Below, in pieces: positions 3,001-27,703 of a DNA stretch of 36,145 bases (positions are counted from its first letter, which is position 1; every line of letters begins with the position of its first letter). Both the position numbers and the translations under genes were made by a program. This DNA comes from Elusimicrobia bacterium RIFOXYD2_FULL_34_15 (GTDB lineage Bacteria; Elusimicrobiota; UBA8919): contig MGVS01000031.1 in NCBI GenBank assembly GCA_001800605.1, positions 28,238 through 64,382 on the forward strand, read 5' to 3'. Below the pieces are notes generated by a model, which worked only from the letters and a program-made list of their open reading frames with translations, was not told the DNA's origin and made no database searches.

Positions 3001-5714
3001 CAATAGGATGCTCATTATTCCGCATGGATGTTAACGATCCCAACTCTGTTTCACAAGCAAACTTCCCGATAAAATCAGCCACACCTATTATAAAACCTAC
3101 AAGAGATGCTATGGAAGTTCGTTATGAGGACCGTGTTAGGAAAACTGTCTTGCAGTCAACAACCGATTATGCTGTGTTAGCGCTTGACTTGAGAACAGAT
3201 AAAAGAGAATCGGTATGGAAAGGCCTTAAACTCAAAAAGACAGGCACAGCCATAGATTCAGATGTATATTCTATAAATATTTATAAAGACACAAACTTCT
3301 CCAATGATCTTGAACGTGAATTTGATGAAAAGATAACTCTTGGTACTGATAAATTTGTTGAAGGTACATCAATAATTAATCTATCTGAAAATAAATATCA
3401 GATAATACACTCGTACGAATATGAGGTATTAAAGCAATCTGTAGATCCTAAGTGGAATCAGAGATACTTTATCACATTAGACATAAATCCGACAGCAACG
3501 GTTGACAACTATTTAGGAGTTATAATTGAAAACACAACAGATTTCATTGTGGTTGATCCTGATTATGTTGAATTTAAGGGTTTACCGGCTGAGCCGCAAA
3601 GTGGTTATTCTACTATCACGGATTTCCCTGACGAGGTAACCTGTGAAATTTACGATATTGCGCCGCCGTCAGTTATTCAGGGAGACACAAATGTTCCTAT
3701 GCTTTGGATTAAAATGAAGACAGATGTATCAGAAGCTACTTGGAAAGCTATTTTGATAGACAGGATTCCTAAAATGCAGGAAGCACAGCAGGGAGCAGGC
3801 GGAGGAGCAAATAGAGATATTAGATATATAAAAATTTACAGAGATGCTAACTTAAACGGCAAGTTGGAAATTGGCGATGATCCGCTAATATCTTCCGGTA
3901 CGGACCAGTTCCCGGCTGATGTTGTAGGAAATACCAAATTAATAAGTTTACTAGAATCTCAGAAGATAGGAGCGCTATCCTGGAAATCTTACTTAATTGC
4001 GGTTGACGTATCACCTACCGCAATGAGAGAAAATACACTGGGACTATCGCTTGCATCCGAGGCATACTTTGTACTTGACCTTTCACAGAACCGTGCAGAT
4101 GTGGTAAAGACATTCCCGACATTTGAAACTGTGCCTTCTGCTATAGGCCCTATAAAGGTCACCGCAGCTCCGAAATATCTGATACCGGCAGGACTTACTC
4201 AGGGAAAGCAGTATGCGATGATGTCTCTTGGTATGAAAGCACATGTTCATTCAGTCGGCTGGATGGGTATTATCGTAGAACAAATCGGGACATATAATCC
4301 TCCGCTTTCAAATGAAGGCGACGGTGACGGCGATATCGCTGAACTTGGACTTTATAAAGATAACGGGAACGGTATTTTCGACGGCAATGAGGTGTTTATA
4401 TCTTCTGTTGTATATGGAACACCTGATTTTTATAACGGTGTTGCACGGCTTTCTTTCTCAACGCAGACAATAAATACGAACATGACCACGTATTATTTAG
4501 TCGCAATGATAGGCAAAATCAATACATCAAATCGTAGTACTGAAGGTGATCAAGTCGGACTACGCATCTCCAACTATGGTAACTTGACAATAAATCCGTA
4601 TACCGCTATCGCTTCGAGTGATACTGTATATCCGTATTTAACACCTTTAGGTATTGTAAGACATTACTCCAAAGCTTCCGATCCGATTGTATATGTCGAC
4701 GAGTGGATATCTTCACAGAATGAAGTTAAGGCAGCCTGGATACAAGGGGAATCACCGGAACCATTACAATATCCTGTTATATATAATGAATATGGTGTTT
4801 CAACCAAGCCCTGTATTAAAGATGATGATAAACCCGATTTCAGCGGTGACTATCAACGTGTAGAATTATCTACTTATGTTGTTGCGAATATGCCGATGCC
4901 TTTTGACCATAATCGTGCTTATTATGTAAGTGTACGTTCAGTTACTTCCGGTGCACAAACAGTTAGAGCTCTGGGTATCGCTTCAAATCCAGGGAATGCA
5001 ATGTTTAAAGTAGATTTATCGCCGCCTACAATACCCGGTAAACCGGAACCATCTACATATGTAACACGTGTGCCGGCATTAGCATATACCGTTAACTGGA
5101 ACTTTTCTGCGGACCCTGAATCAGGTGTATTTGGTTACGAAGTTCAGGAGAGAGAAGACAGTAATCCTGTGTGGCAATGGTATGATGTAAACGGCGATGG
5201 AATTACAGCAACTCCAAAAGAAACACATACTTTAGCAACAGATATTGTTGCCGGCGGTATCACAAAACTAACGGTATTGGCAAAGAAACCGGGACACTTC
5301 TATATATATAGATTAAGGTCTAAGAATAAGGCGGGTGCCTGGTCACAATGGTCTGAAATGTCTGAAGCTGCATCAACAGGATTACCGCCGGAAGTAATAA
5401 GTAATGTTTCCAATTATCCGAATCCGTTTGATACAAGAAAAGGCGGGGAAGAGGGCAAAACACACATTACATTTATTTTGAATCAGGATGCCGATGTAAC
5501 TATAACGTTGTATGACCTGCTTGGCTACAAAGTCATGGAAATGAATTTTGGAAAAGGCACCCCCGGCGGTAAACAAGGACCAAACGACGTTACATGGGAA
5601 GGCAAAAACGAACTTGGCGACTTTGTTGGCCGCGGCGGATACATAGCACACATCAAAGCGGTAGGCGATCGCGGTACAAAGACCACTGTCAGAAAGATAG
5701 GTGTCATTCATTAA
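3..5714 (+). CDS. Giant secreted repeat protein with Fn3-like region and FlgD-like C-terminal domain (5'-partial)
   Basis: The frame is open to the left edge, so the first ATG in it (111) is internal and the true start lies outside the window. The visible part is about 1900 residues. It holds at least eight repeats of roughly 175 residues. Each has a conserved Trp/Leu/Lys strand, often a DSD(V/I) motif, and an Asp/Asn-rich loop resembling a calcium-binding DxNxDGxFD loop (loops near 369, 919, 1443, 1960, 2743, 3287, 3842 and 4358). A Fn3-like region follows (about 5010-5370). The last ~105 residues begin with a YPNPF motif and match FlgD-Ig/type A sorting domains, typical of proteins exported by PorV-dependent type IX-like routes. 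Likely a surface or extracellular adhesin; the substrate is unknown. It lies just upstream of PorV-like genes, which fits a cargo role. The C-terminal domain is clear; the function of the repeats is not recognised. Confidence 0.85.
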   Translation: MDATDYNTNRPDIITGWTGNPGNIAWSSQDLVTKGAMFSPTDWAPEPKASNATKASLGIPEALYQGDGYRNASPAPIEMARITLSIVGSTEAARFDWQKLRVTKSTSSTGAYSDITEIALYKDTNGNSVFDGEVSLGFAPLDTFITSGTFNANNNPPDCILDFSGSNMQTIYSVPTNYFICVRVPITAQKGKTIGLRVLDTEYLTRTLDSAKLAANNFPFFTFDSEIRTNPPVVSIQATDIAAWYEIGAYAQYPTVAQGKENVGFIKFGAWTNEFTATLRKVRVSATGLGAADRLAQNIPELKIYTDLYATHDGIFKPSEDRLLSTVQFSTETATWINVADDPVTNDNNPNTIDDVEDLISPTTRWYYIAYKVGDNAQIGDTIGAKIPIDGFQITGGDLGTHRDFQSSEPSITSTVDTVYIVPRTSEGIPPENVVQGNKNRAIGAFKLYTDDNAAIWKNLKLKRVGNGNDSDVSAVKIWYDVNNDGLFDSTTDQLVSNSRTFGQPPDTQNEVNLTIYGPFEGQEIQKANQLQKTYFVTFDFSYFAGVGPTTPGFILETTNYIGVLTPDRVTAFNSIPPFERKIAGSIMEYSDEITIDPLSQCPATLMQGTTNVSMMRFKMTTEHSWAPWTATKVKRLGTSRDSDIDAVKIAKDNGDGVFNADKDVIIGSGTFGNYGIPGETYIRFSSWPVNYTQVVSTYTQFFYIVYDISDLSIPDFYIGAGFECIDSTNSVLATQSFSITAPNTMGTDNLPARSSLALIVPTPRVVTVVPTDLSKTACALASSINTSDTNLPIEPANTGAATFDPHGYEGRRVLIDNEVIYYTGVSTGLPYNYLLDCSRGDPNLANTARAGHANNSTVWKTMIQSEQNIPMIMFKAYCDGYNVKWSQLVLRRETLIGGDVLDSDVIEIKVWRDADGLNRGMFSADDVMISTGAFYPYKFGTPGKGNLGAEGMAYIDLDDPEYKNTYVPGVPGSFALITTTPTYYFVTFSISESARENDSIGCSLFRMDVNDPNSVSQANFPIKSATPIIKPTRDAMEVRYEDRVRKTVLQSTTDYAVLALDLRTDKRESVWKGLKLKKTGTAIDSDVYSINIYKDTNFSNDLEREFDEKITLGTDKFVEGTSIINLSENKYQIIHSYEYEVLKQSVDPKWNQRYFITLDINPTATVDNYLGVIIENTTDFIVVDPDYVEFKGLPAEPQSGYSTITDFPDEVTCEIYDIAPPSVIQGDTNVPMLWIKMKTDVSEATWKAILIDRIPKMQEAQQGAGGGANRDIRYIKIYRDANLNGKLEIGDDPLISSGTDQFPADVVGNTKLISLLESQKIGALSWKSYLIAVDVSPTAMRENTLGLSLASEAYFVLDLSQNRADVVKTFPTFETVPSAIGPIKVTAAPKYLIPAGLTQGKQYAMMSLGMKAHVHSVGWMGIIVEQIGTYNPPLSNEGDGDGDIAELGLYKDNGNGIFDGNEVFISSVVYGTPDFYNGVARLSFSTQTINTNMTTYYLVAMIGKINTSNRSTEGDQVGLRISNYGNLTINPYTAIASSDTVYPYLTPLGIVRHYSKASDPIVYVDEWISSQNEVKAAWIQGESPEPLQYPVIYNEYGVSTKPCIKDDDKPDFSGDYQRVELSTYVVANMPMPFDHNRAYYVSVRSVTSGAQTVRALGIASNPGNAMFKVDLSPPTIPGKPEPSTYVTRVPALAYTVNWNFSADPESGVFGYEVQEREDSNPVWQWYDVNGDGITATPKETHTLATDIVAGGITKLTVLAKKPGHFYIYRLRSKNKAGAWSQWSEMSEAASTGLPPEVISNVSNYPNPFDTRKGGEEGKTHITFILNQDADVTITLYDLLGYKVMEMNFGKGTPGGKQGPNDVTWEGKNELGDFVGRGGYIAHIKAVGDRGTKTTVRKIGVIH

Positions 5715-5850: not shown

Positions 5851-5879
5851 TTGACAAAATTGGAAAAATTCTTTATAAT
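5851..5879 (+). promoter_or_regulatory. Consensus sigma70-type promoter
   Basis: TTGACA at 5851-5856 and TATAAT at 5874-5879 are separated by exactly 17 bases, both hexamers matching consensus. The expected transcript start (about 5886) lies just upstream of the riboswitch aptamer, so this is the likely promoter of the riboswitch-controlled operon beginning at 6272. Confidence 0.85.
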
Positions 5880-5904
5880 TTTAGTGGTAGAGAAGAAGTA
5901 GTAT

Positions 5905-6032
5905 AAGCGATAATAGCAAACCCGTCGGAGATTGTATATTCAGACGGGGGCGCAAAGCCAATATCTATTATCATAAAAGTAGTGGAATTTTTGCTACTTT
6001 CTGTGTATAATGGATGCCGGGTTACCGAACAA
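5905..6032 (+). promoter_or_regulatory. c-di-GMP-I (GEMM) riboswitch aptamer candidate
   Basis: Visible hallmarks of the GEMM-I family, in order: GCAAACCC at 5916-5923; a P2 helix CCCGTC/GACGGG (5921-5926 with 5943-5948); GGCGCAAAGCC ending at 5959; a P3 helix ATCTATTAT/ATAATGGAT (5963-5971 with 6007-6015) continued by AAAGTAG/CTACTTT; and GCCGGGTTACCGAA at 6016-6029. These match the conserved GCAAACC, CGCAAAGCC and GGGTTRCCGA blocks of cyclic-di-GMP class I riboswitches. Two features are atypical: the P2 loop is longer than the usual GNNA tetraloop, and I cannot define a strong P1. The placement between a perfect promoter and an intrinsic terminator supports a functional switch. The family is recognised from memory; no covariance search was run. 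Confidence 0.8.
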
Positions 6033-6119
6033 AAGACACTTGAGATAGATTTAACTAGATGATAACTGGTTATTATATCAGTATTAATCAGTTACTTGTC
6101 TGTTTAAATCATGTTTCTT

Positions 6120-6156
6120 CCCGAGTTCCGGTAACCCCCGACAACTCGGTTTTTTT
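6120..6156 (+). terminator. Intrinsic terminator / riboswitch expression platform
   Basis: CCGAGTT (6121-6127) pairs with AACTCGG (6143-6149), followed by seven T residues. The left arm and loop, GTTCCGGTAACCC (6125-6137), are complementary to the aptamer 3' strand GGGTTACCGAAC (6019-6030): nine contiguous pairs plus three after a one-base bulge. This is a plausible antiterminator. The inferred logic is that ligand binding holds the aptamer strand, the terminator forms and downstream genes go off; without ligand the antiterminator forms and they go on. Confidence 0.8.
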
Positions 6157-6225
6157 ATGGGCTTTAGCCCATAACCCGCCAAAGATTCCTTGTCCGCCAA
6201 AGACTCAGTGGCGGAAGTGGCGGGT
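6157..6225. repeat. Palindromes after the terminator (GGGCTTTAGCCC hairpin and CCGCC/GGCGG nested inverted repeat)
   Basis: ATGGGC-TTTA-GCCCAT at 6157-6172 forms a perfect hairpin. Next, ACCCGCC (6174-6180) pairs with GGCGGGT (6219-6225), enclosing an inner CCGCC/GGCGG pair (6194-6198 with 6210-6214). The inner motif belongs to the ...CCGCCAC...GTGGCGG... palindrome family also seen near 9959, 18765, 30130 and 30639. No coding potential is evident. Confidence 0.6.
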
Positions 6226-6271
6226 AGGCAGTAGGAGTCGAAGGATAATCAAGGATAATCACGAAGGGTTT

Positions 6272-7936
6272 ATGAAAATAAAAATCAACCAGATAGGCAA
6301 GTTAACAACTAAAGGTCAAGGTTTACAAAATTTGAGCCTCCGGATTTTATTTTTCATTTTAGTTTTTAACTTATTACCCATTACCCGTTACTCGTTACTT
6401 GTCACTTGCCTTTCTGCTGCTGCATCCGGCGGTCAACCGGGACAATTTCTTTCCTGGGGTGCAGGTGCAAGAGCGCTTGCAATGGGAAAAGCATTCACTG
6501 CCATATCAGATGATGCCACTGCAACATATTGGAATCCGGCCGGGCTAACTCAATTGGAAAGAAAAGAGTTTGACGGATTATATGCAAAACTATGGTATGA
6601 TACAACATATAGTTTTATTTCTTATGCACATCCGACAACAAAACTAGGTGTGTTTGGTATTTCACTTGCTTCTCTTACATCTGATAAATTTGAAAAAGTT
6701 TCAATTGAAAGAAACGCAGATAACGATGTGGTTGATTTTAAGACCCTTGGATTTTTCAAGGATTCTCAAACAGCGTTCATAGGTTCATATGCAAGGGATA
6801 TTTCGAAAAATGTTACATTCGGTGCTAATGCGAAATATGTTTCGCACGCAATTGATATTTATAACGTTTCATTTTTAACAACTGATGTCGCGCTTATGTT
6901 AAAAGATATTTATCCAAAATTAAAGCTGGCAATTAATATACAAAATTTAATTTCGTTAAAATTAGGGGATACAGACGATGAATTTCCGATTATTTTAAAA
7001 TTAGGAACAGCATATAAAGCATTAAAGGATAAATTAACGGTTGCGTTGGATATAGATAAAGGCATGAAATCAAATATGAATTATCATCTTGGAGCGGAAT
7101 ACTGGGCAATGGATTATATCGCTGCGAGGTTTGGTTTTGATGTTGGTGATGATGGGATAAGAGAAACAACGGCCGGATTGGGCGGAAAATATAAAGATTA
7201 TTCGCTTGATTTGGCTATGGCATTTCATGCGCTGGGTTCATCAACAAGAGTTTCAGCAAGCTGGAAGTTTGGCAGGTCTTCTAAGACAGGCAAGTTTGAA
7301 GAAATGGCAAAGTATTTCAAAGAAGGTATGGAAGCATATAAGATTGGAGAATATCTTGTTGCGATGGACCGGTTATCTAGAGCATACGGTATAGATCCTA
7401 CAAATGAAGATCTTGCAAGAGCAATCCCGAGAATTCAGGTAGTTTCCGGCTGGATTGAAGCGGAAAAAGGAACAACCAATGAATCGGAAGCTATAAGAAC
7501 AGGCATAGCTTATTACATCGAAGGTGATGTAAATAATTCTGTTATGGCGTTGAGACATGCATATTCTTTACAACCGCAACACGAAAAGTTAAGAAGATTA
7601 TTAAATGATATTGAAAAAGAAGCAGGGCAGGTACTTACACCTATTTCCGGAACGAAACTTACTACAGCTCCTGCGCTTAGTTTGGTTGAGCAGAAACAGG
7701 AAAAAGCGAGAGAATTCTTTTCAAAGAAACAGTATGATGCGGCAATCAATGAATGTCAGGAAATACTTATTATTGATCCTAAGAATGTTTTGGCACTCAA
7801 GAGGATGGGTTCTTGTTATTATCAGATGGGTTTAAAAGATAAAGCGGTTGCAACATGGAAGAAGGTGCTCGAAATTGACCCGACAGATAAAGATGTTCTG
7901 GATATATTAAAAATGTTTGAAGGGGAAAATAAATGA
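6272..7936 (+). CDS. PorV-like outer-membrane beta-barrel protein with C-terminal TPRs
   Basis: Start chosen at ATG 6272. The same frame is open back to 6059, but that would run through the terminator and repeats. About 554 residues. Hydrophobic signal segment near residues 26-46, then a PorV/UPF0164-type N-terminus with the motifs GARALAMGKAFTAISDDA and NPAGL, and a barrel to about residue 326. TPR-like repeats follow (about 340-545), including a clear terminal pair. PorV-family proteins act in the outer membrane, in type IX secretion shuttling C-terminal-domain cargo. The TPR extension implies protein binding, presumably in the periplasm. The stop overlaps the start of the FliF-FliG gene by 4 bp, indicating translational coupling. 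The signal-peptide region is encoded by a dispersed repeat. Probably under the upstream c-di-GMP riboswitch. Barrel family is fairly sure; the exact role is inferred. Confidence 0.8.
   Translation: MKIKINQIGKLTTKGQGLQNLSLRILFFILVFNLLPITRYSLLVTCLSAAASGGQPGQFLSWGAGARALAMGKAFTAISDDATATYWNPAGLTQLERKEFDGLYAKLWYDTTYSFISYAHPTTKLGVFGISLASLTSDKFEKVSIERNADNDVVDFKTLGFFKDSQTAFIGSYARDISKNVTFGANAKYVSHAIDIYNVSFLTTDVALMLKDIYPKLKLAINIQNLISLKLGDTDDEFPIILKLGTAYKALKDKLTVALDIDKGMKSNMNYHLGAEYWAMDYIAARFGFDVGDDGIRETTAGLGGKYKDYSLDLAMAFHALGSSTRVSASWKFGRSSKTGKFEEMAKYFKEGMEAYKIGEYLVAMDRLSRAYGIDPTNEDLARAIPRIQVVSGWIEAEKGTTNESEAIRTGIAYYIEGDVNNSVMALRHAYSLQPQHEKLRRLLNDIEKEAGQVLTPISGTKLTTAPALSLVEQKQEKAREFFSKKQYDAAINECQEILIIDPKNVLALKRMGSCYYQMGLKDKAVATWKKVLEIDPTDKDVLDILKMFEGENK
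6366..6410 (-). repeat. Heptad array inside coding sequence (signal peptide region)
   Basis: TTACCCATTACCCGTTACTC and following 7-mers (TTACYYR type) are the reverse complement of the intergenic arrays at 5721 and 9911. In frame they encode the segment LLPITRYSLLVTCL of the signal peptide of the PorV-like protein. Confidence 0.75.
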
Positions 7937-9915
7937 AAATAACCAAGAACCTAAAATTGAGAGTTAAGGGTAGAAGTGTTTTTTTATTATTTATTTTAAC
8001 TTTTAACCTTTTACCCGTTACTCGTTACTCATTACCCGTCACTTGCCTTTTTGCCGCTGATGAAAACTATCCGTCTATACTTCAGGAAAAAATGAAGATA
8101 GAAAAACAGTATGAAACACGGATAGTTGAAATTATTGAAAAAATTGCCGGACCTAATAAAGCGGTTGTTGCAGTAACGGTTGAGTTGCGGCTTGCAAAAC
8201 AAACAGTATCAGCTTCCAAGAGTGAGGGAAGAGCCGAAAATAGTTCGCCTTTTTCAGGTTCACGGCCGAAGTCAAAAGTATTGCCCGGATTTGAGGAAGA
8301 AATATCGGAATCGCAACAGCAACAACAACAAAATAGCGGTGAAGGAAAGGCGACAGGTACTTCTCAAAGAATTGAGCAGACAGTAATACCAACCGTAATC
8401 AATTCTATAAAAGTGACAATTTTACTTGCCCAAGGAGTACCGGCAGATAAAGAAACTATAATTAAAGATGCAATTACACAATCCATAGGCGGAGATGTCG
8501 GTGATAGAACAAAATTCGATCTTATTATTAAAAAGGCTGCATTTTCATCACAGTCAACCGCTTTCTGGGTACCATTCCTTAAACCATCTGCTTTGATTCC
8601 GCTTGTTTTGGGTTTAATATTTTTAATAATTATAATCGGTCCGCTTCAGAGCGTACTTCGCTCGTTTGCTTCAGCTATTGGTGAAGGTAGAAAAGGCGGT
8701 GGTGAGTTTACAGTTTTGTCTAAAACCGAATCAAAAGGAGAAACATCCGGTAATGGAGCTGGCGGGGGAAGCGGAGTAGGTGTTGGTGCAGGAGGGAGTG
8801 GAGCCGCATCAGTTACGTTAGAAGAAGCAGAAAATAAGAAAAAGAAAAATAAAGAGAAACCATTTGAATATATAAACAAGGAAAATCTAAAAAACCTTCT
8901 TTATCTTATACAAGAAGAACCGGCGGAAGCGATTGCTGTTATAGTTACATATCTTGACCCTGAACTTTCTGCATCTATAATTGATGCTGTATCTCCGGAA
9001 GTTCAAATGCAGATAGCGCTTTGTTTAGTTAATGTAAGGCTTACATCAGAAGAGGATGTGTATAAAATTCATAATAATATTAAGAAAAAAATTGATTTTC
9101 TTGTAGGTGGTATAGACGCATTTATAAAAATTATTGAACAGGTTGATAATAAAGTCCGTTTGGAGATGTTGAGCATGCTTGAAAAACAATCGCCTCGCCT
9201 TGCCAGAAGAGTTAAAGAAAGTATTTTTATGTTCGAGGATTTGTCGAAACTTCCCGATCTGACAATTCAGTTTATTATGAGAGAAGTGAAAATGGACCAA
9301 TTGGCAATCGCTTTAAAAGGTGCCGGTATGGACGAGGTTATGAAAAAAGTTATGGCAAATATGTCTGAAGGCGGACGTGTACTATTAAAAGAAGAGATGG
9401 ATTTTGGAAGGCCGGCAACCCAGGAACAAATTGAAGAGGTACAGAGGGAAATTGAAAAAACAGTTAAAAAGATGGAAAAAGAAAGAAAGATTGTTATTAA
9501 AAAAGCAGAAGAAACAGATAAAACAAAAGGGGTAGAGCTCGAAGGCCGTCTTCAAAAACTCGATATCGGAGAAGAATACAAAAATCAACAACCGCAACAA
9601 CAGACACAGCAGCAGTCTGCTCAGGCACAGCGTCCAGGTGAATCTCCTCAGAGGGCAATTGAATATTATAATGCGGGTATAACGGCATATTCATCAAGTA
9701 AGATTGATGACGCCATTCACTATTTTCAGCGTTCTGTGGAATATAATCAAAATTTCTGGCAAGCCTGGCAATATCTCGGAAGTTGTCTTTATGCTAAAGG
9801 GAGAATCGAGGAATCGTTAAAAGCATATGAAAAATCATTATCTATAAATCCGTCAAATACGCAACTTAAGGATTGGCTAGCTTCGGAGAAGCAAAAAAGG
9901 ATAGCAAAAAGATAA
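7933..9915 (+). CDS. Natural FliF-FliG-like fusion with C-terminal TPR (flagellar-rotor-like inner-membrane protein)
   Basis: 660 residues. Signal or first membrane segment at 15-40. Residues about 45-205 resemble the region of FliF before its second membrane helix (IVEIIEKIAGPNKAVVAVTVEL, then a charged/Gln-rich loop, then IKVTILLAQGVPADKETI). A strong transmembrane helix lies at about 218-238. After a Gly-rich linker, residues 314-522 match the FliG middle and C-terminal domains: EEPAEAIAVIVTYLDPE, MFEDLSKLPDLTIQFIMREV, ALKGA and NMSEGGRVLLKEEM. A Gln-rich linker and TPR (about 573-655) end the protein. The ring-building N-terminal domains of FliF are absent. Predicted topology puts the FliF-like part in the periplasm and FliG plus TPR in the cytoplasm, as in a flagellar motor. 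No other flagellar gene is visible. It overlaps the preceding PorV-like gene by 4 bp. FliG homology is near certain; FliF homology is likely; function is inferred. Confidence 0.85.
   Translation: MKITKNLKLRVKGRSVFLLFILTFNLLPVTRYSLPVTCLFAADENYPSILQEKMKIEKQYETRIVEIIEKIAGPNKAVVAVTVELRLAKQTVSASKSEGRAENSSPFSGSRPKSKVLPGFEEEISESQQQQQQNSGEGKATGTSQRIEQTVIPTVINSIKVTILLAQGVPADKETIIKDAITQSIGGDVGDRTKFDLIIKKAAFSSQSTAFWVPFLKPSALIPLVLGLIFLIIIIGPLQSVLRSFASAIGEGRKGGGEFTVLSKTESKGETSGNGAGGGSGVGVGAGGSGAASVTLEEAENKKKKNKEKPFEYINKENLKNLLYLIQEEPAEAIAVIVTYLDPELSASIIDAVSPEVQMQIALCLVNVRLTSEEDVYKIHNNIKKKIDFLVGGIDAFIKIIEQVDNKVRLEMLSMLEKQSPRLARRVKESIFMFEDLSKLPDLTIQFIMREVKMDQLAIALKGAGMDEVMKKVMANMSEGGRVLLKEEMDFGRPATQEQIEEVQREIEKTVKKMEKERKIVIKKAEETDKTKGVELEGRLQKLDIGEEYKNQQPQQQTQQQSAQAQRPGESPQRAIEYYNAGITAYSSSKIDDAIHYFQRSVEYNQNFWQAWQYLGSCLYAKGRIEESLKAYEKSLSINPSNTQLKDWLASEKQKRIAKR
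7999..8047 (-). repeat. Heptad array inside coding sequence (second signal peptide)
   Basis: A second in-frame copy of the TTACYYR heptad array encodes LLPVTRYSLPVTCL in the FliF-FliG protein, nearly identical to the segment in the preceding gene. Confidence 0.75.
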
Positions 9916-10004
9916 GTAATAGTAACGGGTAACGAGTAACGGGTAATGAGTAAAAGTTTCCGCCACTTAAGCATCGGCGGATCCGCCAACGACTTAGTGG
10001 CGGA
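9911..10004. repeat. Heptad array plus TCCGCCACT palindrome
   Basis: GTAACGG/GTAACGA heptads cover about 9911-9956. TCCGCCACT (from 9959) is then inverted as AGTGGCGGA (ending 10004), with an inner perfect palindrome GGCGGATCCGCC at 9976-9987. Degenerate TTGAACC-type repeats continue to about 10085. This fills the gap before the coiled-coil gene. Confidence 0.65.
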
Positions 10005-10127
10005 CATAGTTCATAGTTCATAAATGAATAATAAAACCACAATTTTTAAAGTCGTTTTGAACCACTTGAACCCATTGAACTATTTGTGTAGATTTGAACC
10101 CTTAATTTTAGAATCTCGGAGGTTAAA

Positions 10128-13100
10128 ATGAACGAAGAAAAAAAAGATAATTTTAACGGGCCATTACCGCCGTTACCGGGTAATATTCCGGAACCGCCAA
10201 TGCCGGATTTACCTCAAAGTTCGCAAAACGAACCAATGTTAGATTTTAGTCCTGTGCTTCCAGTACAAAATACGTCTACTATTATTCCCAATGTTGATTA
10301 TGAAACAAAATTCCAGGAGATGGAATTGACGAGAAATAATTTAGTTAAAATGCTGGAAGAGATTCAGAATAACCATGAAAAAGAAAGGCAGATGTGGGAA
10401 GAAAGAGCAGCTTTTTTAAACAAGGATTCGCAGTCCTTGCTGGATGATTTTGCTATTCGCCAGTTAAAAGAAGAAGAAGAAAGAACAAAAAGAGAAACGG
10501 AAATACAATCAGAAAAGTTGAAGCTTGAGATGTCGCTCAAAGAACTTCAGACAAAATTGGAAGAGGCACGGGAAAAAACATTTTTTCAGGCATTAAAAAC
10601 AAAAGAGGAAGAAGCCACTGCAATAAAACTTGAAGCTGCTATGAAAGATGTTCAATTAAAAAATGTCCGGGCAAATGCTGAGCGTGAAATAGAAGCAATA
10701 AAAATGAAGATGGAGGCGGGTCTTTCTGAAAAACTTGTATCATTGCAGAAACAATACGAAGAAAAACTTACCGATGTTTATTTTAAGTCATCTCAAAAAG
10801 AAAAAGAACTTACAGGGAAAATCGAAAATCTCCAATCCGAAAAAGAAGCTCTTCTAAAACAGGCGGAGTTTGAAAAGGACCGTAGTACTAGAGAATATGC
10901 AGATAAAATTATTAAAAAACAAAACGAGATCAATCTACTTACTTCGAAGACGGAACACGAGAAAGAAATCTATACCAAAAATATTGCATCACTTCAGAAC
11001 GAACTTACTTCCGCAAAAGCAAAATTGCTTATAGACGTAGCTAATTTAAAATCTGAATATGAAAATAAAATAAATCAATTAAAGACCTCATTTCCCGTAA
11101 TGGAAGGGAAAATAGAGACTCTAAATTCGCAGATCGAATCAGAGAAAAAAAATACATCTGAGAAAATAAAATATAAAGATGAAGAAATAGCATCTCTTAG
11201 AAGACAATTTTCTGAAAGAGAGGAGTTGCTGAAAATAGAATTTGATAAACAAATTACTCAGAATGCGAATGATAAGAATAAAGCCGAATTTGAATTAAGA
11301 CAGCTAATTGAAAAAACAAGGGAAGAATACAGCCGAAAAATAAACACTGTCCAAAACGAAAAAAAAGCTCTCGAATACGATATTGTTTTAAAAAATGCGC
11401 AATATGAAAAAGTTCTGAGAGAGAAAGTTGAGGAATTAAGGAAGGAATATGAAAGCAAGATCGGTTTAAAGGATTTACAGCTACAAAAAGTTGAAATAGA
11501 ATTTAATAATAAAATATCGGAATTAAATGATATCCATCAGAAAAATACTGAAATATTGAAAGAAGATATTAGTCGGCAAAATCATTTATTAATGAGTGAA
11601 AAAGCCGGGTTCGAAAAATTAATCTTAGAAAAAAATAATGAGATTGTTTCAATAAAGAATTCTTTGCAGGACGAATTAAGAAAACAAAAGGAGTTCTACG
11701 AAGAGTCACTTTTAGAAAAAGAAGAGAAAATATCCGTTGTAACTGCAGATTTTGAAAAAAAAGAAGTAATGCTGCGTTCAGAGTATGAAAAACGGTTAGC
11801 AGATGCACTGAATGAAAATGTAAAATTAGAAATGAAATTTAGAAATGAGATAGAAGTTCTTAATAATGAATATACAAAGCGTCTTTCTGTTTCAATTGAC
11901 GAAAAAAGTAAGATAGAGCATGATTTTAGAAGCCGCATTGATTTTATTGAAAAAGAACACCTTAAGGAGATAGATTTACTTAATGAAAGATATGCACAGG
12001 AAAATGATAAACAAAATCAGGAATTTAAACGTAAGTTGGAAGATATTAGTCTTTCTAAAGTAGAATTGGACAAAAATTATCAGATAGCGATTGAAAAAAA
12101 GATAAATGAATACGAAAAAAATATTAAAAATAAAGATGAAGAATGGCGTTTGAAAATTGAAAGACTTGAATATGAGTATAATATAAAAAATAAAGAGCAT
12201 GATGCAGAAAAATTACAATTTGAAAAAAAGATTTTGGATATTACGAAAGATTATCAGGAAAGAAAAGCCGAGCTTGAAAAGAATTTTAAGGAGAAGGATG
12301 ATTTATTAAAAATAAAATTAAGTGAGCTTGAAAAAAATTACCAGAATAAGATAGCACAGGTTGAATCGGAAAAGAAAGCTTTGGAATTGGAAATCCAGAA
12401 AAAGCTGGAAAACATAAATTATGATTGGTCAAGGAAATTACAGGAAGAAAAAGCACAGCTTGAACAAAAGATAGCAGGTCTTTCTTCCGAACTTTTATCA
12501 AGAAATAAACAGTGGAATGAGGATGGTGAAAAATATAAAACGCTGATTTCGAATAAAGAACAGGAATTAATTTTGCTTAAAAGTAATTATGAAAATAGAA
12601 TTTCAGAAATGACGAAGAGCGAGAACAATTTAAAAACGATGATTGACAGATTATCAAATGACTTGCTTAATGAACGCGAACGATTTTCAAGAGAGCTTGC
12701 TAATAAAGTAAATGAATTTGAAAAAGAGAAAATTAGCATTAAAAAGCAAGGTGAAGCGGAAAATAGCAGTATTGAAAAAACTCATAGTGCGGAAATAAGA
12801 TCTATTGGTTTAGCAGGAGAAGAAAAATTAATAGATTTAAGGAGTCAGATAGTATTGTTAAAAAAGGAATCGGAAGCGATTAGGAATAAGTGGCTGGAAG
12901 AAAAAAAGGAATGGATGGATACGACAGCCAGGACAAATGATTATACATCAGATGAAACAAAGAAAATTTTGCTTAAAAAAGCGGAGTTGGAAGCCTTGGA
13001 GTATAAATTAAAAACTAATGAAAAGACACTGGAAGCTCGTATTGAAACAGAGAAACGAAAATTTGATGAGATGATTGAAGTTAAAAATAGGCAAATAGAT

Positions 13101-13718
13101 TCTTTAAAAGAACAGATGTCGGAAAATGAAGAAGAAATGCAGGAAAGAGTGAAAGAAATAATGCGGGATAAAGCTGCCGATAAGGAAACATTAGTAAATA
13201 AAGAAAAGGAAATGCAAGAAAGAATGAAAGAGATAACGCAGAATAATACTATTGATAAAAAAACATTAGCAGAAAAAGAAAAGGAAATTGAGAAGTTGAG
13301 AAATAACTCGAAACAGTTAGAATCTATCAAGGAACAGCTTGGTAGGGATATTGTTTCAATTACATCAGAAATTAAGAAAAAGGATGAAAAAATAAATTTT
13401 CTTCAGCAAGATATGGAATTACGATTAAAATTTCAAAAGGAAGATATAGAAACTCAGTTTTCAAAAAAATTAAGAGATATCGAAAACAAATATAAACAAG
13501 AAAAAGATAGCATTGAAAAGATACTTTCCGAAGCTAATAAACAACATTTTGAAGAAATAAAAAAGTTGGAAGGAGAAATAGAAATATCTAAAAATATTTC
13601 TTTATCCAGTGATAAATTAAATGAGTTAAAGCCGGTTATTGAAGAGATTTCTAAATCTGAAAAAAGTAAAGATTCTATTTTAACTAAGTTTTGGGATTGG
13701 CTAAATTCGCCGGTATAA
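10128..13718 (+). CDS. Giant cytoplasmic coiled-coil protein
   Basis: 1196 residues. A good ribosome binding site (GGAGG, 6 bases before the ATG) fixes the start. There is no signal peptide or membrane helix. The first ~60 residues are Pro-rich (PLPPLPGNIPEPPMPDLP). Nearly everything after that is Glu/Lys-rich heptad-repeat sequence predicted to form one very long coiled coil, with tandem-like copies such as MQERVKEIMRDKAADKETL and MQERMKEITQNNTIDKKTL near residues 1005-1045. The C-terminus ends in a short Trp-containing tail (FWDWLN). The family is not recognised beyond coiled coil; resemblance to SMC or filament proteins is compositional and no ATPase motifs are present. It may be a scaffold or filament binding the cytoplasmic FliG/TPR part of the neighbouring protein. 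That role is inference from context. Confidence 0.75.
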   Translation: MNEEKKDNFNGPLPPLPGNIPEPPMPDLPQSSQNEPMLDFSPVLPVQNTSTIIPNVDYETKFQEMELTRNNLVKMLEEIQNNHEKERQMWEERAAFLNKDSQSLLDDFAIRQLKEEEERTKRETEIQSEKLKLEMSLKELQTKLEEAREKTFFQALKTKEEEATAIKLEAAMKDVQLKNVRANAEREIEAIKMKMEAGLSEKLVSLQKQYEEKLTDVYFKSSQKEKELTGKIENLQSEKEALLKQAEFEKDRSTREYADKIIKKQNEINLLTSKTEHEKEIYTKNIASLQNELTSAKAKLLIDVANLKSEYENKINQLKTSFPVMEGKIETLNSQIESEKKNTSEKIKYKDEEIASLRRQFSEREELLKIEFDKQITQNANDKNKAEFELRQLIEKTREEYSRKINTVQNEKKALEYDIVLKNAQYEKVLREKVEELRKEYESKIGLKDLQLQKVEIEFNNKISELNDIHQKNTEILKEDISRQNHLLMSEKAGFEKLILEKNNEIVSIKNSLQDELRKQKEFYEESLLEKEEKISVVTADFEKKEVMLRSEYEKRLADALNENVKLEMKFRNEIEVLNNEYTKRLSVSIDEKSKIEHDFRSRIDFIEKEHLKEIDLLNERYAQENDKQNQEFKRKLEDISLSKVELDKNYQIAIEKKINEYEKNIKNKDEEWRLKIERLEYEYNIKNKEHDAEKLQFEKKILDITKDYQERKAELEKNFKEKDDLLKIKLSELEKNYQNKIAQVESEKKALELEIQKKLENINYDWSRKLQEEKAQLEQKIAGLSSELLSRNKQWNEDGEKYKTLISNKEQELILLKSNYENRISEMTKSENNLKTMIDRLSNDLLNERERFSRELANKVNEFEKEKISIKKQGEAENSSIEKTHSAEIRSIGLAGEEKLIDLRSQIVLLKKESEAIRNKWLEEKKEWMDTTARTNDYTSDETKKILLKKAELEALEYKLKTNEKTLEARIETEKRKFDEMIEVKNRQIDSLKEQMSENEEEMQERVKEIMRDKAADKETLVNKEKEMQERMKEITQNNTIDKKTLAEKEKEIEKLRNNSKQLESIKEQLGRDIVSITSEIKKKDEKINFLQQDMELRLKFQKEDIETQFSKKLRDIENKYKQEKDSIEKILSEANKQHFEEIKKLEGEIEISKNISLSSDKLNELKPVIEEISKSEKSKDSILTKFWDWLNSPV

Positions 13719-13723
13719 GGAAT

Positions 13724-16114
13724 ATGTTAAAAAAAATTATTATTAATATTAAGAAATATATGAAATATAGTTTTAAAGCTGCGTTTGTTTTTTTATTAAT
13801 ATTTGTTATATTTAGAGTATCTTTTATTTATTCTGCCGAGCCGTCACCGCCACAGTATCCCGCCGGGATATCCGATTTAACTGCTTTGACAGGTGTTTAT
13901 GAGGGAGATGTTATACTGACTTGGACCGCACCAGGCGATGATGGTAGTAAAGCCGACCCGCCGGTCTCAGGATATTCTATAAGATATTATGAGGGTCAAA
14001 TTACCAGAACAGGTTATAATGATTATGAAAAAGTTAAAATTTATAATAGCATATGGACAGATTTTGTTGCCGGGGGCAGCGTTGAGACAAGAGTATTAAC
14101 CGGACTTAGCGAATATTGTGGAAGAAAACTATATTTTGCACTCAAAGGTTATGATGAAGTACCAAACTATGGGATATGGAATTCATCTTCTGATGTTGGG
14201 GGATTAGAAATAAATTTATATAATTCCTGCATAGTGAAATTGATACCGCCTTCCCCGGTTAATAATTTAACCGTTTCAGCGGGTTATAAGAATGCAATTC
14301 TTTCCTGGACTTCACCCGGAGATGACGGTAATTCCGGAAATATAATAAACGGTGCAATAGAAATTAGGTGTTCACCAACAAATCCGATAACAAGCGAAAC
14401 AGATTGGAACAGCGTTTCTTCAGGTTATCCTTATAGGGCGGTGGTTTCATCTTCTATGATTGCCGGTTCATTACAAAGATATACTCTAACAGGATTAGCT
14501 ATAGGTTCTACTTATTATTTTGCTATAAAAATTAAAGATGAAAATGAGTCAGGTTGGTCTAATATTGATATTACTATACCCAAACCGGTAAGCTCTCCGA
14601 TTAATGCCCCTCCGGTTGCATTTGGACTTTCTTCTCCTGCCAATAGTATTATTTCTGCTACAGAAAAACCATCTTTTAGTTGGGAAAATTCCACCGATCC
14701 CGATAATTCTGGAATTTATTCATATGGACTTCAGATTTCTGAGTATAGTAATTTTTCTTCTTTTGTGCAGGCGCCCATAGGCATTGCATATTCTTCATAT
14801 ACTCTGATTGAAGCGATACCTGATGATAAAACATATTATTGGCGTGCCAAAGCGATAGATGTAGATGGAGGGGTGACATATTCAAATGAAAGCAGAATTC
14901 TATATGTGAACACTTCTAATGCATCTCCGGTAAATTTTAGTCTTACATCACCCAAGAACGAAACCGTTTTAAAAAAACCTACATTCGTATGGTCGGCATC
15001 GCAAGATCCGGATCCGCCGTGGACTGTTAAATATACTATATATTATTCTACTTATTCAGATTTCGCTTCATATCAAACAATAACTAATTTAAGCACTACG
15101 ACTTATACGTTTATTTCCAATCTGACTGAAAATACAACATATTACTGGAAAGTTGCAGCATCAGATGAATATATTGTCCCATCAAGCATATTTTCAACTG
15201 AAATTTATTCTTTTTATGTAAGGCCGGTATTGCCGGCTGCTCCTGCAGGTATAAAAATGACGAATAATTCTATTACATGGGATTCTGTTTTATTGGATGA
15301 AGACGGCGTATCAATTACTGATTTTTCAAAATACAAAATATACCGTTCTAGTGATATAAAAATCCTAGGCACATCCGGGACGTTTGCCGAAGATACTACC
15401 CAGAATTCGACCCTTGCTATAAGCGGTTATTGGACCGCCATCAGAGCTGTTGATGTTTATGGAAATGAAAGTGCAAATTCAATGTCAATAAATCCAGATG
15501 AAACCAAACAAATAATGATTTCAAATACCAGGGATTTGATTATAGAAATTCCAACCGAAGCACAGATTTCACTAACAGGTAAAATCATATCTATTTCTAA
15601 ATCCGGAAATATTTATGATATAAAGCCGCTTAATATAAGCAATATGAATGAAATTTACAATTTTGAATTTTCATCACCAGTAAAAATTACTTTTGAAACA
15701 AATGGTGATTGCGTTTATTGGTTTAATGGAATAGAATATGTTGCGCTAGGGGGTAGAATTGGTAACAGCATAACAGTTCAAACAAAGAAACTTGGTAGAT
15801 TTTATACCGGAAGTATAGGTTCATATAAACTTAAACTTGTTTCTTCGTTCCCTACTAAAATATTTACGCCCAATGGTGACGGTATTAATGATGAGATAAA
15901 TCTAACATTTTCGGGTATTACAGAAGAAAGTATAAATGCACAAATTTTTGATATGTCCGGTAAAAAAGTCTCGGATATGACACAAAGAGATTTTTCCTGG
16001 TTTTTATGGGACGGTAAAGATTCAGACGGTAAAGTAGTATTACCGGGTATTTATATTTATCAGGTAAAAAATGGAAAATATACCGCAAATGGAACGGTCG
16101 TGGTAGCGAGGTAG
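13724..16114 (+). CDS. Secreted Fn3-like multidomain protein with gliding-type C-terminal domain
   Basis: ATG 13724 is preferred; the frame opens at a TTG (13691) inside the upstream gene. About 796 residues. A signal peptide (hydrophobic stretch to about residue 42, ending IYSAEP) precedes two Fn3-like domains with the shared motif SP/APGDDG, then two domains with the pattern FSLTSP...PTFVWS...DPD typical of bacterial Fn3/Ig-like repeats, then a further Fn3-like unit. The C-terminal ~85 residues start FTPNGDGINDE and end with LPGIYIYQV, matching gliding-motility/type B C-terminal sorting domains (FlgD-Ig-like fold). Likely exported across the outer membrane and surface-anchored or released. 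It begins 5 bp after the coiled-coil gene and precedes a second PorV-like gene, so it is a probable cargo of this locus. Carbohydrate or protein ligand unknown. Confidence 0.8.
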   Translation: MLKKIIINIKKYMKYSFKAAFVFLLIFVIFRVSFIYSAEPSPPQYPAGISDLTALTGVYEGDVILTWTAPGDDGSKADPPVSGYSIRYYEGQITRTGYNDYEKVKIYNSIWTDFVAGGSVETRVLTGLSEYCGRKLYFALKGYDEVPNYGIWNSSSDVGGLEINLYNSCIVKLIPPSPVNNLTVSAGYKNAILSWTSPGDDGNSGNIINGAIEIRCSPTNPITSETDWNSVSSGYPYRAVVSSSMIAGSLQRYTLTGLAIGSTYYFAIKIKDENESGWSNIDITIPKPVSSPINAPPVAFGLSSPANSIISATEKPSFSWENSTDPDNSGIYSYGLQISEYSNFSSFVQAPIGIAYSSYTLIEAIPDDKTYYWRAKAIDVDGGVTYSNESRILYVNTSNASPVNFSLTSPKNETVLKKPTFVWSASQDPDPPWTVKYTIYYSTYSDFASYQTITNLSTTTYTFISNLTENTTYYWKVAASDEYIVPSSIFSTEIYSFYVRPVLPAAPAGIKMTNNSITWDSVLLDEDGVSITDFSKYKIYRSSDIKILGTSGTFAEDTTQNSTLAISGYWTAIRAVDVYGNESANSMSINPDETKQIMISNTRDLIIEIPTEAQISLTGKIISISKSGNIYDIKPLNISNMNEIYNFEFSSPVKITFETNGDCVYWFNGIEYVALGGRIGNSITVQTKKLGRFYTGSIGSYKLKLVSSFPTKIFTPNGDGINDEINLTFSGITEESINAQIFDMSGKKVSDMTQRDFSWFLWDGKDSDGKVVLPGIYIYQVKNGKYTANGTVVVAR

Positions 16115-16167
16115 GAACCAAGTTAAAATTAAAAGTTAAAAGTTAAAATTGTGGTATTTGAGAATTT

Positions 16168-17436
16168 ATGAAGAGAAAATATATTATATTATTTAGCTTA
16201 ATGCTTATCATAACACCTAATTTGTATTCGGCGTTTGAAAATACATTTTCAGGCGCTCGTCCGTATGGAATGGGGAATGCCTATACGGGGCTTTCTGATG
16301 ATATCCAGGGTATTTTTTATAATCCTGCGGGTTTATCACAAGTAAGGCATAGCGAATTAATTACATACTACGGTAAACCTTTTATGGGATTAGATGATAA
16401 AAGCAATCTTTCGGAAGGATTTGTCGGTTATTTACGTCCGTTAAGGGGGAGGGAATCTCTTGCGTTTTCAGTAAGTGATTTTAGGCTTATGTCTGCATAC
16501 ACTGAAAATACTGCTTCGCTAAGTTACGCAAAAGATATTTCAAGAGTAATTTCGCTGGGTGCTAATATAAAGATTCTGAAAATAATGTATGGAAGTGATG
16601 CGTACACAGCAATAGATCCTGTTTTCACAAGAACATCCAGAACCTCATTTTCAAGCGACGTTGGAATGTTTATTAAAATGACAAATAGAATTTCAGCAGG
16701 AATTGCTGCTTTTAATCTAAACGAACCGAATATAGGAATCTATGAAATGGTATCTCTTCCGATAAGAATGCGAATAGGTCTGAGTACCCGTGCAAAATTT
16801 GGTTCGATATGTTTAGATATTGAGAAACAAAAGAAAAAAGACATTAAATTTTTTGCCGGTGCCGAAAAAGCATTTTTCAAAGATAGGTTTTTTATAAGAG
16901 AAGGTGTTGAATATGCAAAAGACTCCCTGGGGGTATCATTAGGGCTTTCATTCTTGCCGGATCCGTTAAAAATTGATTATGCTTTTCAATTACCTTTAAT
17001 GGGAATTAGAGATGTTTTTGGTAGTCATCGTCTTTCGGTTGTTTTTATGTTTGGCAAGGAGCTTAACGATCCGTATACGGCAGATTTGGAAGATAAGATT
17101 GCCAACTTAGAAAAGGAAAAACAGGAACTACAAAAGAACTTAAAAGTTTCAGAAGAACAGCTTTCCACAACATCTACCGAAGCAGAAAAAACTAAAACTC
17201 AGCTTGATGAGATACAGAAACAAAAAGAACAGCTAGAAATAGAAAAAAGAAGGTTGGAATACCGCCCGCCTGCAAAAAGAATTATTTATCATACAGTCGA
17301 AAAAGGTGATACCCTGAATTCAATTTCACAGAAATATTACAATACACCGGACAGATGGCAGGAAATATATAATTCTAATAAAAGTAAAATTGAAAGAGGA
17401 ATGCCTGTCGTGGGCACAAAACTTTTAATACCGTAA
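16168..17436 (+). CDS. PorV-like outer-membrane barrel with coiled-coil linker and C-terminal LysM
   Basis: 422 residues. Signal peptide 1-22, then PorV-type motifs GARPYGMGNAYTGLSDD and NPAGL, and a barrel to about residue 295. A Lys/Glu-rich coiled coil spans about 300-365. The last ~50 residues form a LysM domain (YHTVEKGDTLNSISQKYY ... KIERGMPVVGTKLLIP). LysM domains bind peptidoglycan glycan strands, so the protein probably sits in the outer membrane with a periplasmic arm gripping the cell wall, an arrangement like OmpA-type anchors. It follows the Fn3-like gene by 53 bp, a spacer made of AGTTAAAA repeats. Together with the PorV/TPR protein it gives this locus two barrels. The assignment is confident; the secretion role is inferred. 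Confidence 0.8.
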   Translation: MKRKYIILFSLMLIITPNLYSAFENTFSGARPYGMGNAYTGLSDDIQGIFYNPAGLSQVRHSELITYYGKPFMGLDDKSNLSEGFVGYLRPLRGRESLAFSVSDFRLMSAYTENTASLSYAKDISRVISLGANIKILKIMYGSDAYTAIDPVFTRTSRTSFSSDVGMFIKMTNRISAGIAAFNLNEPNIGIYEMVSLPIRMRIGLSTRAKFGSICLDIEKQKKKDIKFFAGAEKAFFKDRFFIREGVEYAKDSLGVSLGLSFLPDPLKIDYAFQLPLMGIRDVFGSHRLSVVFMFGKELNDPYTADLEDKIANLEKEKQELQKNLKVSEEQLSTTSTEAEKTKTQLDEIQKQKEQLEIEKRRLEYRPPAKRIIYHTVEKGDTLNSISQKYYNTPDRWQEIYNSNKSKIERGMPVVGTKLLIP

Positions 17437-17580: not shown

Positions 17581-18531
17581 ATGAAATCATTAACTGATTA
17601 TTGGAGAGCTAAATTTGTAGAATTGCAGCATCTATTTAATGATGATAAAAAGAAAAGCAATTTAGAAAAAAAAGAATTGAAAGACAAAATATTTGAACAT
17701 ACCGCCACGATTAAAGAGCTTCAGGCTAAGATAGAAGAGCTTGAAAAAAATATATCAGAAACAAATAAAAAAATAGAAATAAAAGAAGAAGAAAAAAAAT
17801 CTCTGATAATACAAACTGTCAATGAAATAGAATCAGTAAGACAGGAGAGTATCGAAAATGTTTCTATTGTTGAAAACAAAAAAAATAACGAAGAAATAAT
17901 ACTTATTTCTGAGTTTGTAAGGTTTCTGAGAAAAGATATCGGAAATGTGGAAGGGCTTACAAGGGTGCTATCTGAAATATGTAAAGGAAAAAAAGCTAAA
18001 ATTATTCTTAACACTATTATTGAACATACGGAATGGATGTCGAAACTAGCCGATGAACTTTCCTGGTTTTCTGAACCGGTAAAAAAAGAGGACGGTACTA
18101 TTAATCCGGATGTTCTTTTTGATGAGGTAATTTCTGAATTCGAGGAAATATTATTTGAGAGGAATATCAAAATATCAAAAAGTGCTGTTGAAGGTATTCC
18201 TGAAGTAGCAATTTCCAAAGATCATTTAAAGATTATTTTCACTGAAGTAATCAGAAATTCTTTTGATGCAATGCCAAAAGGCGGTTTAATTAATATTAAA
18301 ATAAATTTTTCGGATAAAAATATTTTAGTTGAAGTTTCAGATACAGGACGTGGGATTCCGGTTCATTTGATGCCTAAAGTAGCGAGACCATTTTTTTCCA
18401 CCAAGAAAAAAAATGGTTTTGGTTTCGGTCTAACAAGGACACGCAGAATATTGGATGTGTATAACTGTCAATTCGATATTTCTAGTGAAGAAGACATAGG
18501 GACAACGGTTAAAATCAGTTTACCCCGTTAG
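17581..18531 (+). CDS. Histidine-kinase-like ATPase with N-terminal coiled coil, phospho-accepting His missing
   Basis: 316 residues, cytoplasmic. Residues 1-110 are coiled coil with no sensor or membrane domain. Residues about 115-165 align with a HisKA-type dimerisation domain, but the H-box reads LRKDIGN where AHEIRN is usual, so Lys replaces the phospho-accepting His. The ATPase domain looks intact: N-box IRNSFDAM, G1 DTGRGIP, F-box-like ARPFFSTKKK and G2 GFGFGL. It may bind ATP without autophosphorylating on the usual site, act as a regulatory pseudokinase, or use another residue. Flanked closely by two MITE-like copies: the first ends 7 bp before the ATG, and the second supplies the codons for Pro-Arg and the TAG stop. 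The original C-terminus may therefore have been trimmed, though the G2 region and last strand appear complete. Confidence 0.8.
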   Translation: MKSLTDYWRAKFVELQHLFNDDKKKSNLEKKELKDKIFEHTATIKELQAKIEELEKNISETNKKIEIKEEEKKSLIIQTVNEIESVRQESIENVSIVENKKNNEEIILISEFVRFLRKDIGNVEGLTRVLSEICKGKKAKIILNTIIEHTEWMSKLADELSWFSEPVKKEDGTINPDVLFDEVISEFEEILFERNIKISKSAVEGIPEVAISKDHLKIIFTEVIRNSFDAMPKGGLINIKINFSDKNILVEVSDTGRGIPVHLMPKVARPFFSTKKKNGFGFGLTRTRRILDVYNCQFDISSEEDIGTTVKISLPR

Positions 18532-23576: not shown

Positions 23577-24254
23577 GTGAGTATTATTGAAATTAAAGGA
23601 CTAAAAAAAGAATATCCTCTGGGTAGCACAACTGTATATGCTTTGCGGGGGATTGACTTACAAGTAAACGAGGGGGATTTTATGAGTATTATCGGACCCT
23701 CGGGTAGCGGAAAGACCACTCTTCTTAATGTTATAGGCTGTATTGATTTTGCTACAGAAGGAAGTGTTCAGGTAGGTGGAAGAGAAATAACTTCATTAAA
23801 AGATAAAGAGATAACTGATATAAGACTTAATAAAATAGGATTTATATTCCAGACATTCAATCTTATCCCCGTTCTTGATGTTATTGAAAATGTGGAGTTT
23901 CCTCTACTTTTAATGAAGAAACAATCGGTATCAGAAATAAGGAAACGGGCAGAAAAACTTATAGATGAGGTTGGTCTAACGGAATACGCAAAACACCGTC
24001 CTGCAGAGCTTTCTGGCGGCCAGCGTCAGCGAGTTGCTATTGCAAGGGCGCTTGTAACAAATCCCGATATAGTTCTTGCAGATGAACCGACCGCGAATCT
24101 TGACTCAGTAACCGGTGCACAGATTCTTGAGCTCATGAGGGTTATGAATCAAATAGAAAAAACAACATTTATTTTTTCTACACATGATGCAAATGTTTTG
24201 AAATATGCAAATAATATAACAAAAATTAAAGATGGTCTTATAGTCAGAGAATAA
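23577..24254 (+). CDS. ABC transporter ATPase, LolD/MacB type
   Basis: 225 residues with a GTG start and AAGGAG-type ribosome binding site 8 bases before it. Walker A GPSGSGKT (40-47), Q-loop FQTFN (91-95), signature LSGGQ (145-149), Walker B DIVLADEPT with Glu170, and the H-loop STHD are all intact. It belongs to the family driving FtsX-type permeases: lipoprotein release (LolCDE), MacB efflux or cell-division FtsE. Two FtsX-type permeases follow directly, then a LolA-like carrier and an outer-membrane barrel, favouring transport of a lipid or lipoprotein from the inner to the outer membrane. Energises the complex on the cytoplasmic face. Confidence 0.9.
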   Translation: MSIIEIKGLKKEYPLGSTTVYALRGIDLQVNEGDFMSIIGPSGSGKTTLLNVIGCIDFATEGSVQVGGREITSLKDKEITDIRLNKIGFIFQTFNLIPVLDVIENVEFPLLLMKKQSVSEIRKRAEKLIDEVGLTEYAKHRPAELSGGQRQRVAIARALVTNPDIVLADEPTANLDSVTGAQILELMRVMNQIEKTTFIFSTHDANVLKYANNITKIKDGLIVRE

Positions 24255-24264
24255 CGGAATTTGT

Positions 24265-25800: not shown

Positions 25801-25803
25801 AAT

Positions 25804-27567: not shown

Positions 27568-27593
27568 AAACATCCTTTAGGAAAAGGATGTTT
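27568..27593 (+). terminator. Perfect 11 bp hairpin after permease 2
   Basis: AAACATCCTTT (27568-27578) and AAAGGATGTTT (27583-27593) pair perfectly over an AGGA loop. No long T-run follows, so it may be an attenuator, an mRNA-stabilising structure or a terminator. Confidence 0.5.
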
Positions 27594-27683: not shown

Positions 27684-27703
27684 ATTCTATAAGGAGTTTA
27701 ACT

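Follow-up and report, generated by a model that had tools for sequence, protein, structure and literature searches.

Within the 36,145 nucleotides of DNA analyzed here (the window: positions 28,238 to 64,382 of the forward strand of contig MGVS01000031.1, from Elusimicrobia bacterium RIFOXYD2_FULL_34_15), a cluster of genes encodes, somewhat probably, the rotor half of a rotary motor other than the flagellar one; this motor would be coupled to PorV-type proteins of the outer membrane and to surface proteins, and would serve gliding, surface-protein movement or secretion. That the FliF-FliG fusion protein found there (FliFG) makes up a motor, together with MotA and MotB, appears well supported by sequence comparison; for the coupling of the rotor to the outer membrane the evidence is indirect. 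The window is part of contig C31 of a 2.47-Mb genome, 97% complete. One after another, on the + strand, it features the end of a giant protein, a class I cyclic di-GMP (c-di-GMP-I) riboswitch, a PorV-type barrel with tetratricopeptide repeats (PorV-TPR), FliF-FliG-TPR, a long coiled coil, an Fn3/CHU_C protein, a PorV-LysM barrel and a histidine kinase. A preliminary description had reported consecutive genes on one strand, and all are present as listed.

The rotor subunit (7933 to 9915, + strand) is a protein of 660 residues, in which domain searches detect FliG_M (36.3 bits) and FliG_C (87.9 bits), while a full FliG N domain was not found. Ring-building motifs (RBM) 1 and 2 of FliF (PF01514) were found neither in the fusion nor elsewhere in the genome. 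A profile of the periplasmic part, built from 16 family members, matches FliF residues 226-431 (E 3.1e-10, probability 96.8); of 20 column-shuffled profiles, used as a control, the best reached an E of 0.08. PDB matches of the structure model are FliG (1lkv, E 1.5e-11), TPR proteins and FliF, including RBM3/collar, at E ~1e-3. Taken together, the FliG domains and the structure and FliF profile matches therefore indicate a subunit composed of FliF RBM3/collar, the last membrane helix, FliG M and C and added TPRs, with a Gly-rich linker between membrane helix and FliG. The FliF-FliG-TPR fusion of the preliminary description is thus retained for FliG M/C and TPR, but its FliF portion is reduced to RBM3/collar and the last transmembrane helix, and its FliG lacks a full N domain. 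On these comparisons, the fusion is shown to be a minimal MS/C-ring subunit, made of RBM3/collar, one membrane helix and the FliG torque domains. Three FliF-FliG fusions are encoded in the genome, the other two on contigs C3 and C86. At FliG position 288, 96 of the 99 aligned proteins have E, D or Q. The records containing relatives of the fusion are mostly named Elusimicrobia bacterium.

The genome carries no complete flagellar gene set which could account for the FliG domain: FliM/N, FlhA and YscJ_FliF each gave 0 matches, in a search which did not include flagellin, rod and hook families, and no full FliF is present. The same holds for nearly all FliG-bearing genomes of the phylum. FliG_C is present in 40 out of 120 Elusimicrobiota genomes and, by profile searches, FlhA and FliM/N are absent from 39 of these 40; among the 39, YscJ_FliF appears as one weak, sub-threshold piece, in a single genome. 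The one exception is G031, where FlhA, FliM/N and FliF occur along with further flagellar genes; in a tree, the FliG of this genome falls with those of E. coli, Vibrio and Thermotoga and is separated from the fusions with a branch support of 94/99. Among the 98 FliG proteins that are not flagellar, 96 have FliF fused to FliG; the remaining two are one cut by a contig end and a soluble FliG-TPR protein in G036. The gene for the latter, FliG(M,C)-TPR at L065:9671-10711, lies between parA and parB, and its FliG-type domain has possibly been recruited to chromosome segregation. Twenty near-complete genomes sampled from the phylum do not contain the fusion.

The stator module of the window's genome is located on another contig (G000:C70), where FlbD, MotA and MotB are followed by a pyruvate-phosphate-dikinase-like gene (906 residues). 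The same FlbD-MotA-MotB order, followed by a similar gene of 883 residues, is found in an intact cluster of another genome (G011). Overall, 59 FliFG have a MotA on the same strand within 6 kb, and a MotB too. MotA matches flagellar MotA/PomA models best (228.7 bits, vs 18.8 bits for TolQ), without reaching equivalog cut-offs; channel prolines Pro173/Pro222 are kept in 68 out of 68 proteins, and 53 of these 68 have K or R at position 90. The stator MotB features the ion-binding Asp and an OmpA domain, and the Asp is present in all 26 readable single-MotB loci. Where two MotB are encoded, at least one partner has the Asp (32 loci out of 32), while N, G, S or A takes its place in the second partner of 16 loci: the sequences suggest that these loci encode asymmetric MotB pairs. 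Pairs with one such Asp-less partner (N, G, S, A) occur in L046, L048, L052, L053, L057, L067, L108, L116, L120, L006 and others.

FlbD (PF06289) accompanies the fusion: it is found in 35 of the 39 fusion-bearing, non-flagellated genomes, against none of the 20 fusion-free ones (Fisher p 4e-12, to be taken as a guide only, since related genomes are not independent), and lies beside MotA in about 31 of the 35. It was not found in the flagellated G031. SwrD, of the FlbD family, raises flagellar motor power in Bacillus, according to work cited in PMC9195833.

Gene order in relatives is not scattered. The surroundings of essentially all FliG hits were examined, and locus types were distinguished: type I, the window type, consists of PorV-TPR, FliFG-TPR and a coiled coil with a proline-rich head, and its order is kept in 30 complete loci from many families. 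PorV-TPR adjoins FliFG in all 30; the proline-headed coiled coil follows one to few genes 3' of FliFG in nearly all type I loci, and in several relatives a large ORF (open reading frame) with a FlgD-like tail lies 5' of the cluster. Type I runs on into FlbD-MotA-MotB in several families. In other locus types, to which those on C3 and C86 belong, FliFG is directly followed by MotA, MotB and, often, a second MotB. The phylum-wide core is composed of the riboswitch, PorV-TPR, FliFG-TPR and the proline-headed coiled coil, plus FlbD-MotA-MotB. Of the co-occurrence of five genes suggested by the preliminary description, the order of PorV, FliFG and coiled coil is conserved across the phylum; the full set of five is not universal, the Fn3/CHU_C and PorV-LysM arrangement being the version of the window's family. 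Two type I loci (L083, L084), about 30-45% identical to the others, come from records named Clostridia bacterium and bacterium, and are possibly from another lineage or from mislabelled metagenome-assembled genomes.

Riboswitch control, also anticipated by the preliminary description, is borne out, and the class is c-di-GMP-I. The aptamer (5906 to 6030, + strand) scores 28.9 bits with RF03167 and 32.0 bits with RF01051 (E 2e-4 for the genome), in both cases under the Rfam threshold; the aptamer found at the same place in a relative passes the RF01051 threshold (44.7 vs 35 bits). c-di-GMP-I matches, reaching up to 92 bits, are found 5' of 28 out of 30 complete type I loci, when about 0.3 would be expected by chance (for all FliG hits), and in 26 of these 28 the 35-bit cut-off of RF01051 is exceeded. 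Tandem c-di-GMP-I riboswitches occur 5' of the rotor operon in L101, L063, L066, L072, L074 and L112 (genomes G103, G036, G034, G077, G060 and G081). RNA folding places an expression platform at 6019 to 6156 (+ strand). Its antiterminator, in which GGGTTACC (6019-6026) pairs with GGTAACCC (6130-6137), is used in the unliganded minimum-energy fold, and competes with an intrinsic terminator, CCGAGTT (6121-6127) paired to AACTCGG (6143-6149) and followed by a T run; a similar terminator is found in a relative (L042). Ligand binding should release the terminator, and c-di-GMP is therefore predicted to turn the operon off. The ATG at 6059, previously taken as the start of PorV-TPR, sits in this expression platform: the start is corrected to about 6272 (MKIKINQ..., with a GAAGGG-type ribosome site).

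The same riboswitch class is found elsewhere: 5' of SprA-like genes in 5 cases out of 38 (0.06 expected by chance) and 5' of surface proteins tailed by a C-terminal domain (CTD), often with a PorV gene next (L154, L157, L162, L164-L166, L168). Further copies lie 5' of PilT-like (L169) and HEAT-repeat-like genes.

Both PorV-like barrels reported earlier are upheld. PorV-TPR (6272 to 7936, + strand) is an outer-membrane barrel with C-terminal TPRs, predicted to be periplasmic, and matches NF033709, the PorV/PorQ family, with 132.7 bits (cut-off 90). PorV-LysM (16168 to 17436, + strand) scores 54 bits, under the same cut-off; fold model and domain matches describe a 14-stranded PorV-like barrel, a helix and LysM, a putative peptidoglycan anchor, and, among PDB structures, PorV from the type IX secretion system matches best (6h3i_F, E 5e-12). 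Between them, downstream of the rotor gene, lie two further + strand genes. The first (10128 to 13718; 1196 residues) encodes a proline-rich head, then a giant coiled coil of cytoplasmic type, recognized by its composition, with an 845-residue stretch devoid of proline, and by a helical periodicity of 3.62. The second (13724 to 16114, its frame being open from TTG 13691) encodes a secreted Fn3-repeat surface protein with a type IX sorting-type CHU_C C-terminal domain (33.7 bits, above the cut-off of 27). The giant secreted protein upstream, indicated by the preliminary description, is present with its FlgD-like C-terminal domain (E 0.0043), but is far larger than the window shows. Its C-terminal 1903 amino acids lie at 3 to 5714 (+ strand), and the frame runs about 28 kb back, open to the start of the contig (G000:C31:2-33951): a repeat protein of about 11,300 residues, a nominal length, as a 13-N scaffold gap lies inside the ORF and the frame across it is unverified. 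A 1733-residue SprA-like protein is encoded in the genome (TIGR04189, E 4.8e-40; 136.8 bits against an equivalog cut-off of 200), with a PorV gene nearby, and SprA-like genes were found in 58 of 60 genomes tested. The Pfam SprA_N model under-detects this family: it recovers 15 of 40 genomes, against 40 of the same 40 with a profile built for it. The type IX motor protein GldM/PorM (PF12081) was found in none of 20 genomes searched, GldL not being included in the search.

A GHKL histidine kinase with an N-terminal coiled coil (17581 to 18531, + strand) lies next to the cluster, which it also adjoins in close relatives. Further downstream, window positions 23577-28468 hold a Lol/MacB-type cluster, with the ATPase of an ABC (ATP-binding cassette) transporter, two FtsX-like permeases and a LolA-like lipoprotein-sorting gene.

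MotA and MotB beside most FliFG, the co-occurrence of FlbD, the conserved riboswitch and the SprA-like translocon add evidence beyond the preliminary description, whose observation is confirmed and whose interpretation is partly supported. Neither of the two outcomes that it had named as refuting was observed. A possible working scheme may be outlined. FliFG subunits would form an inner-membrane ring. As in the flagellum, MotA would turn it, drawing on ions that flow past the MotB Asp, while the OmpA domain of MotB would grip peptidoglycan. Torque might then pass from the periplasmic collar to the PorV-type barrels, through their TPRs, and from these to the large surface proteins with FlgD or CHU_C tails, which the SprA-like translocon would export; the output could be gliding, surface-protein movement or powered secretion. 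The cytoplasmic TPRs of FliFG and the proline-headed coiled coil may provide a cytoplasmic scaffold or track. The prediction is that, when c-di-GMP levels rise, transcription stops early and the rotor operon is shut off. Since the riboswitch is shared, PorV and CTD-tailed surface proteins lie next to the motor genes and GldM is missing, the motor likely does work at the outer membrane, comparable to that of GldLM in Bacteroidota. Extended to the whole phylum, the reading would be of a rotary machine of the envelope that uses FliG and MotAB, but none of the switch and export parts of a flagellum, to drive PorV/SprA-type surface-protein transport or gliding, some versions having asymmetric MotB pairs. 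This extension is put forward more tentatively, as a plausible reading short of a probable one.

Several observations weigh against the proposed rotor and its coupling. The structure model of the fusion has moderate confidence (mean predicted local distance difference test score 67) and is silent on oligomers. Gly stands in place of Arg281 of FliG in 61 of the 99 proteins aligned, and the torque contacts of E. coli FliG are retained only in part. No MotA lies within the window locus. The PorV model covers TPRs, and some of the PorV calls made for 86 of 100 neighbourhoods are barrel-less TPR proteins. The OFF direction of the riboswitch would follow from folding alone. Finally, SprA-like genes are also found in 18 out of 20 fusion-free genomes: because of this, translocation would not strictly need the motor, and the candidacy of SprA as a motor-specific partner is weakened.

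In a rather unlikely alternative, the motor mainly powers export, FliFG-MotAB replacing GldLM to energise SprA/PorV secretion of CTD-tailed proteins, with no cell motility. The SprA-like translocon with its nearby PorV gene, the failure to detect GldM in the 20 genomes, the riboswitch common to some SprA-like genes and the CTD-tailed cargo beside the motor would all fit. Export is however unlikely to be the only role, since SprA-like genes persist where FliFG is missing, and several paralogous motors per genome fit poorly with one secretion system.

It is improbable that FliFG-MotAB is a motor for envelope maintenance, comparable to Tol-Pal or to a cell-wall machine, with the PorV/LysM parts as anchors. 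LysM, OmpA and TPR domains are present, the first two binding peptidoglycan, and the stators are ion channels; these resemble flagellar MotA/PomA, however, rather than TolQ, c-di-GMP control is shared with surface proteins, and the system is dispensable, as the 20 near-complete genomes without it indicate. Less probable still is a static platform for adhesion or sensing, where a non-rotating FliFG ring scaffolds PorV and giant adhesins and the stators do something else: the widespread loss of Arg281 and the lack of a MotA in the window locus agree with it, but the 59 loci with MotA and MotB near FliFG, the kept ion-path residues and the co-occurrence of FlbD with the fusion do not. A decaying relic of a lost flagellum, which the few flagellar-type genes left might recall, was rejected as very improbable: genes are intact, often in several loci per genome, order, riboswitch, regulation and ion-binding Asp are kept, and the sole truly flagellated relative has a different FliG, which groups with canonical flagellar ones.

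The rotary machine proposed here shares with the flagellar motor FliG M and C, FliF RBM3/collar, a MotA of the MotA/PomA type, MotB with Asp and OmpA domain, and FlbD/SwrD; it differs in being devoid of FliM/N, FlhA and FliF RBM1/2, in the fusion of FliF to FliG, in the C-terminal TPRs and in the linked PorV-type barrels. PorV-type barrels, the 1733-residue SprA-like protein and CHU_C/type A-like C-terminal domains recall type IX secretion and Bacteroidota gliding (SprA, PorV, GldLM), but a flagellar-type rotor and stator are found in place of GldM, and the SprA-like score stays below its cut-off. By gene content, defining features of both the flagellum and the type IX motor are lacking. The Agl-Glt gliding motor of Myxococcus similarly features an ion-driven inner-membrane motor, TPR proteins and a cytoplasmic coiled coil. 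Unlike the present system, it is not known to contain FliG. Its AglRS belong to the generic, TolQR-like ion transporters (PMC12505986). A covalent FliF-FliG subunit is also known from flagellated bacteria, and a fused FliFG protein has been used for the Vibrio MS-ring (PMC11481574); such fusions contain the full FliF and work in flagella, whereas here RBM3/collar and FliG M/C are joined to TPRs in cells without a flagellum. No description of this gene set was found in the open-licence PubMed Central literature, an earlier description elsewhere being possible. As a set, the machine appears undescribed, while its torque module is homologous to the flagellar one.

A concrete, testable candidate is offered by the conserved cluster, together with its stator and regulator and the outer-membrane proteins that are probably its partners. 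If the proposal is true, Elusimicrobiota would possess another kind of ion-driven rotary envelope machine, which would reveal the capabilities of a minimal rotor made of FliG alone and the collar fused to it, and would bear on the evolutionary assembly of the flagellar motor. Its rotor module could have a history independent of the flagellum.

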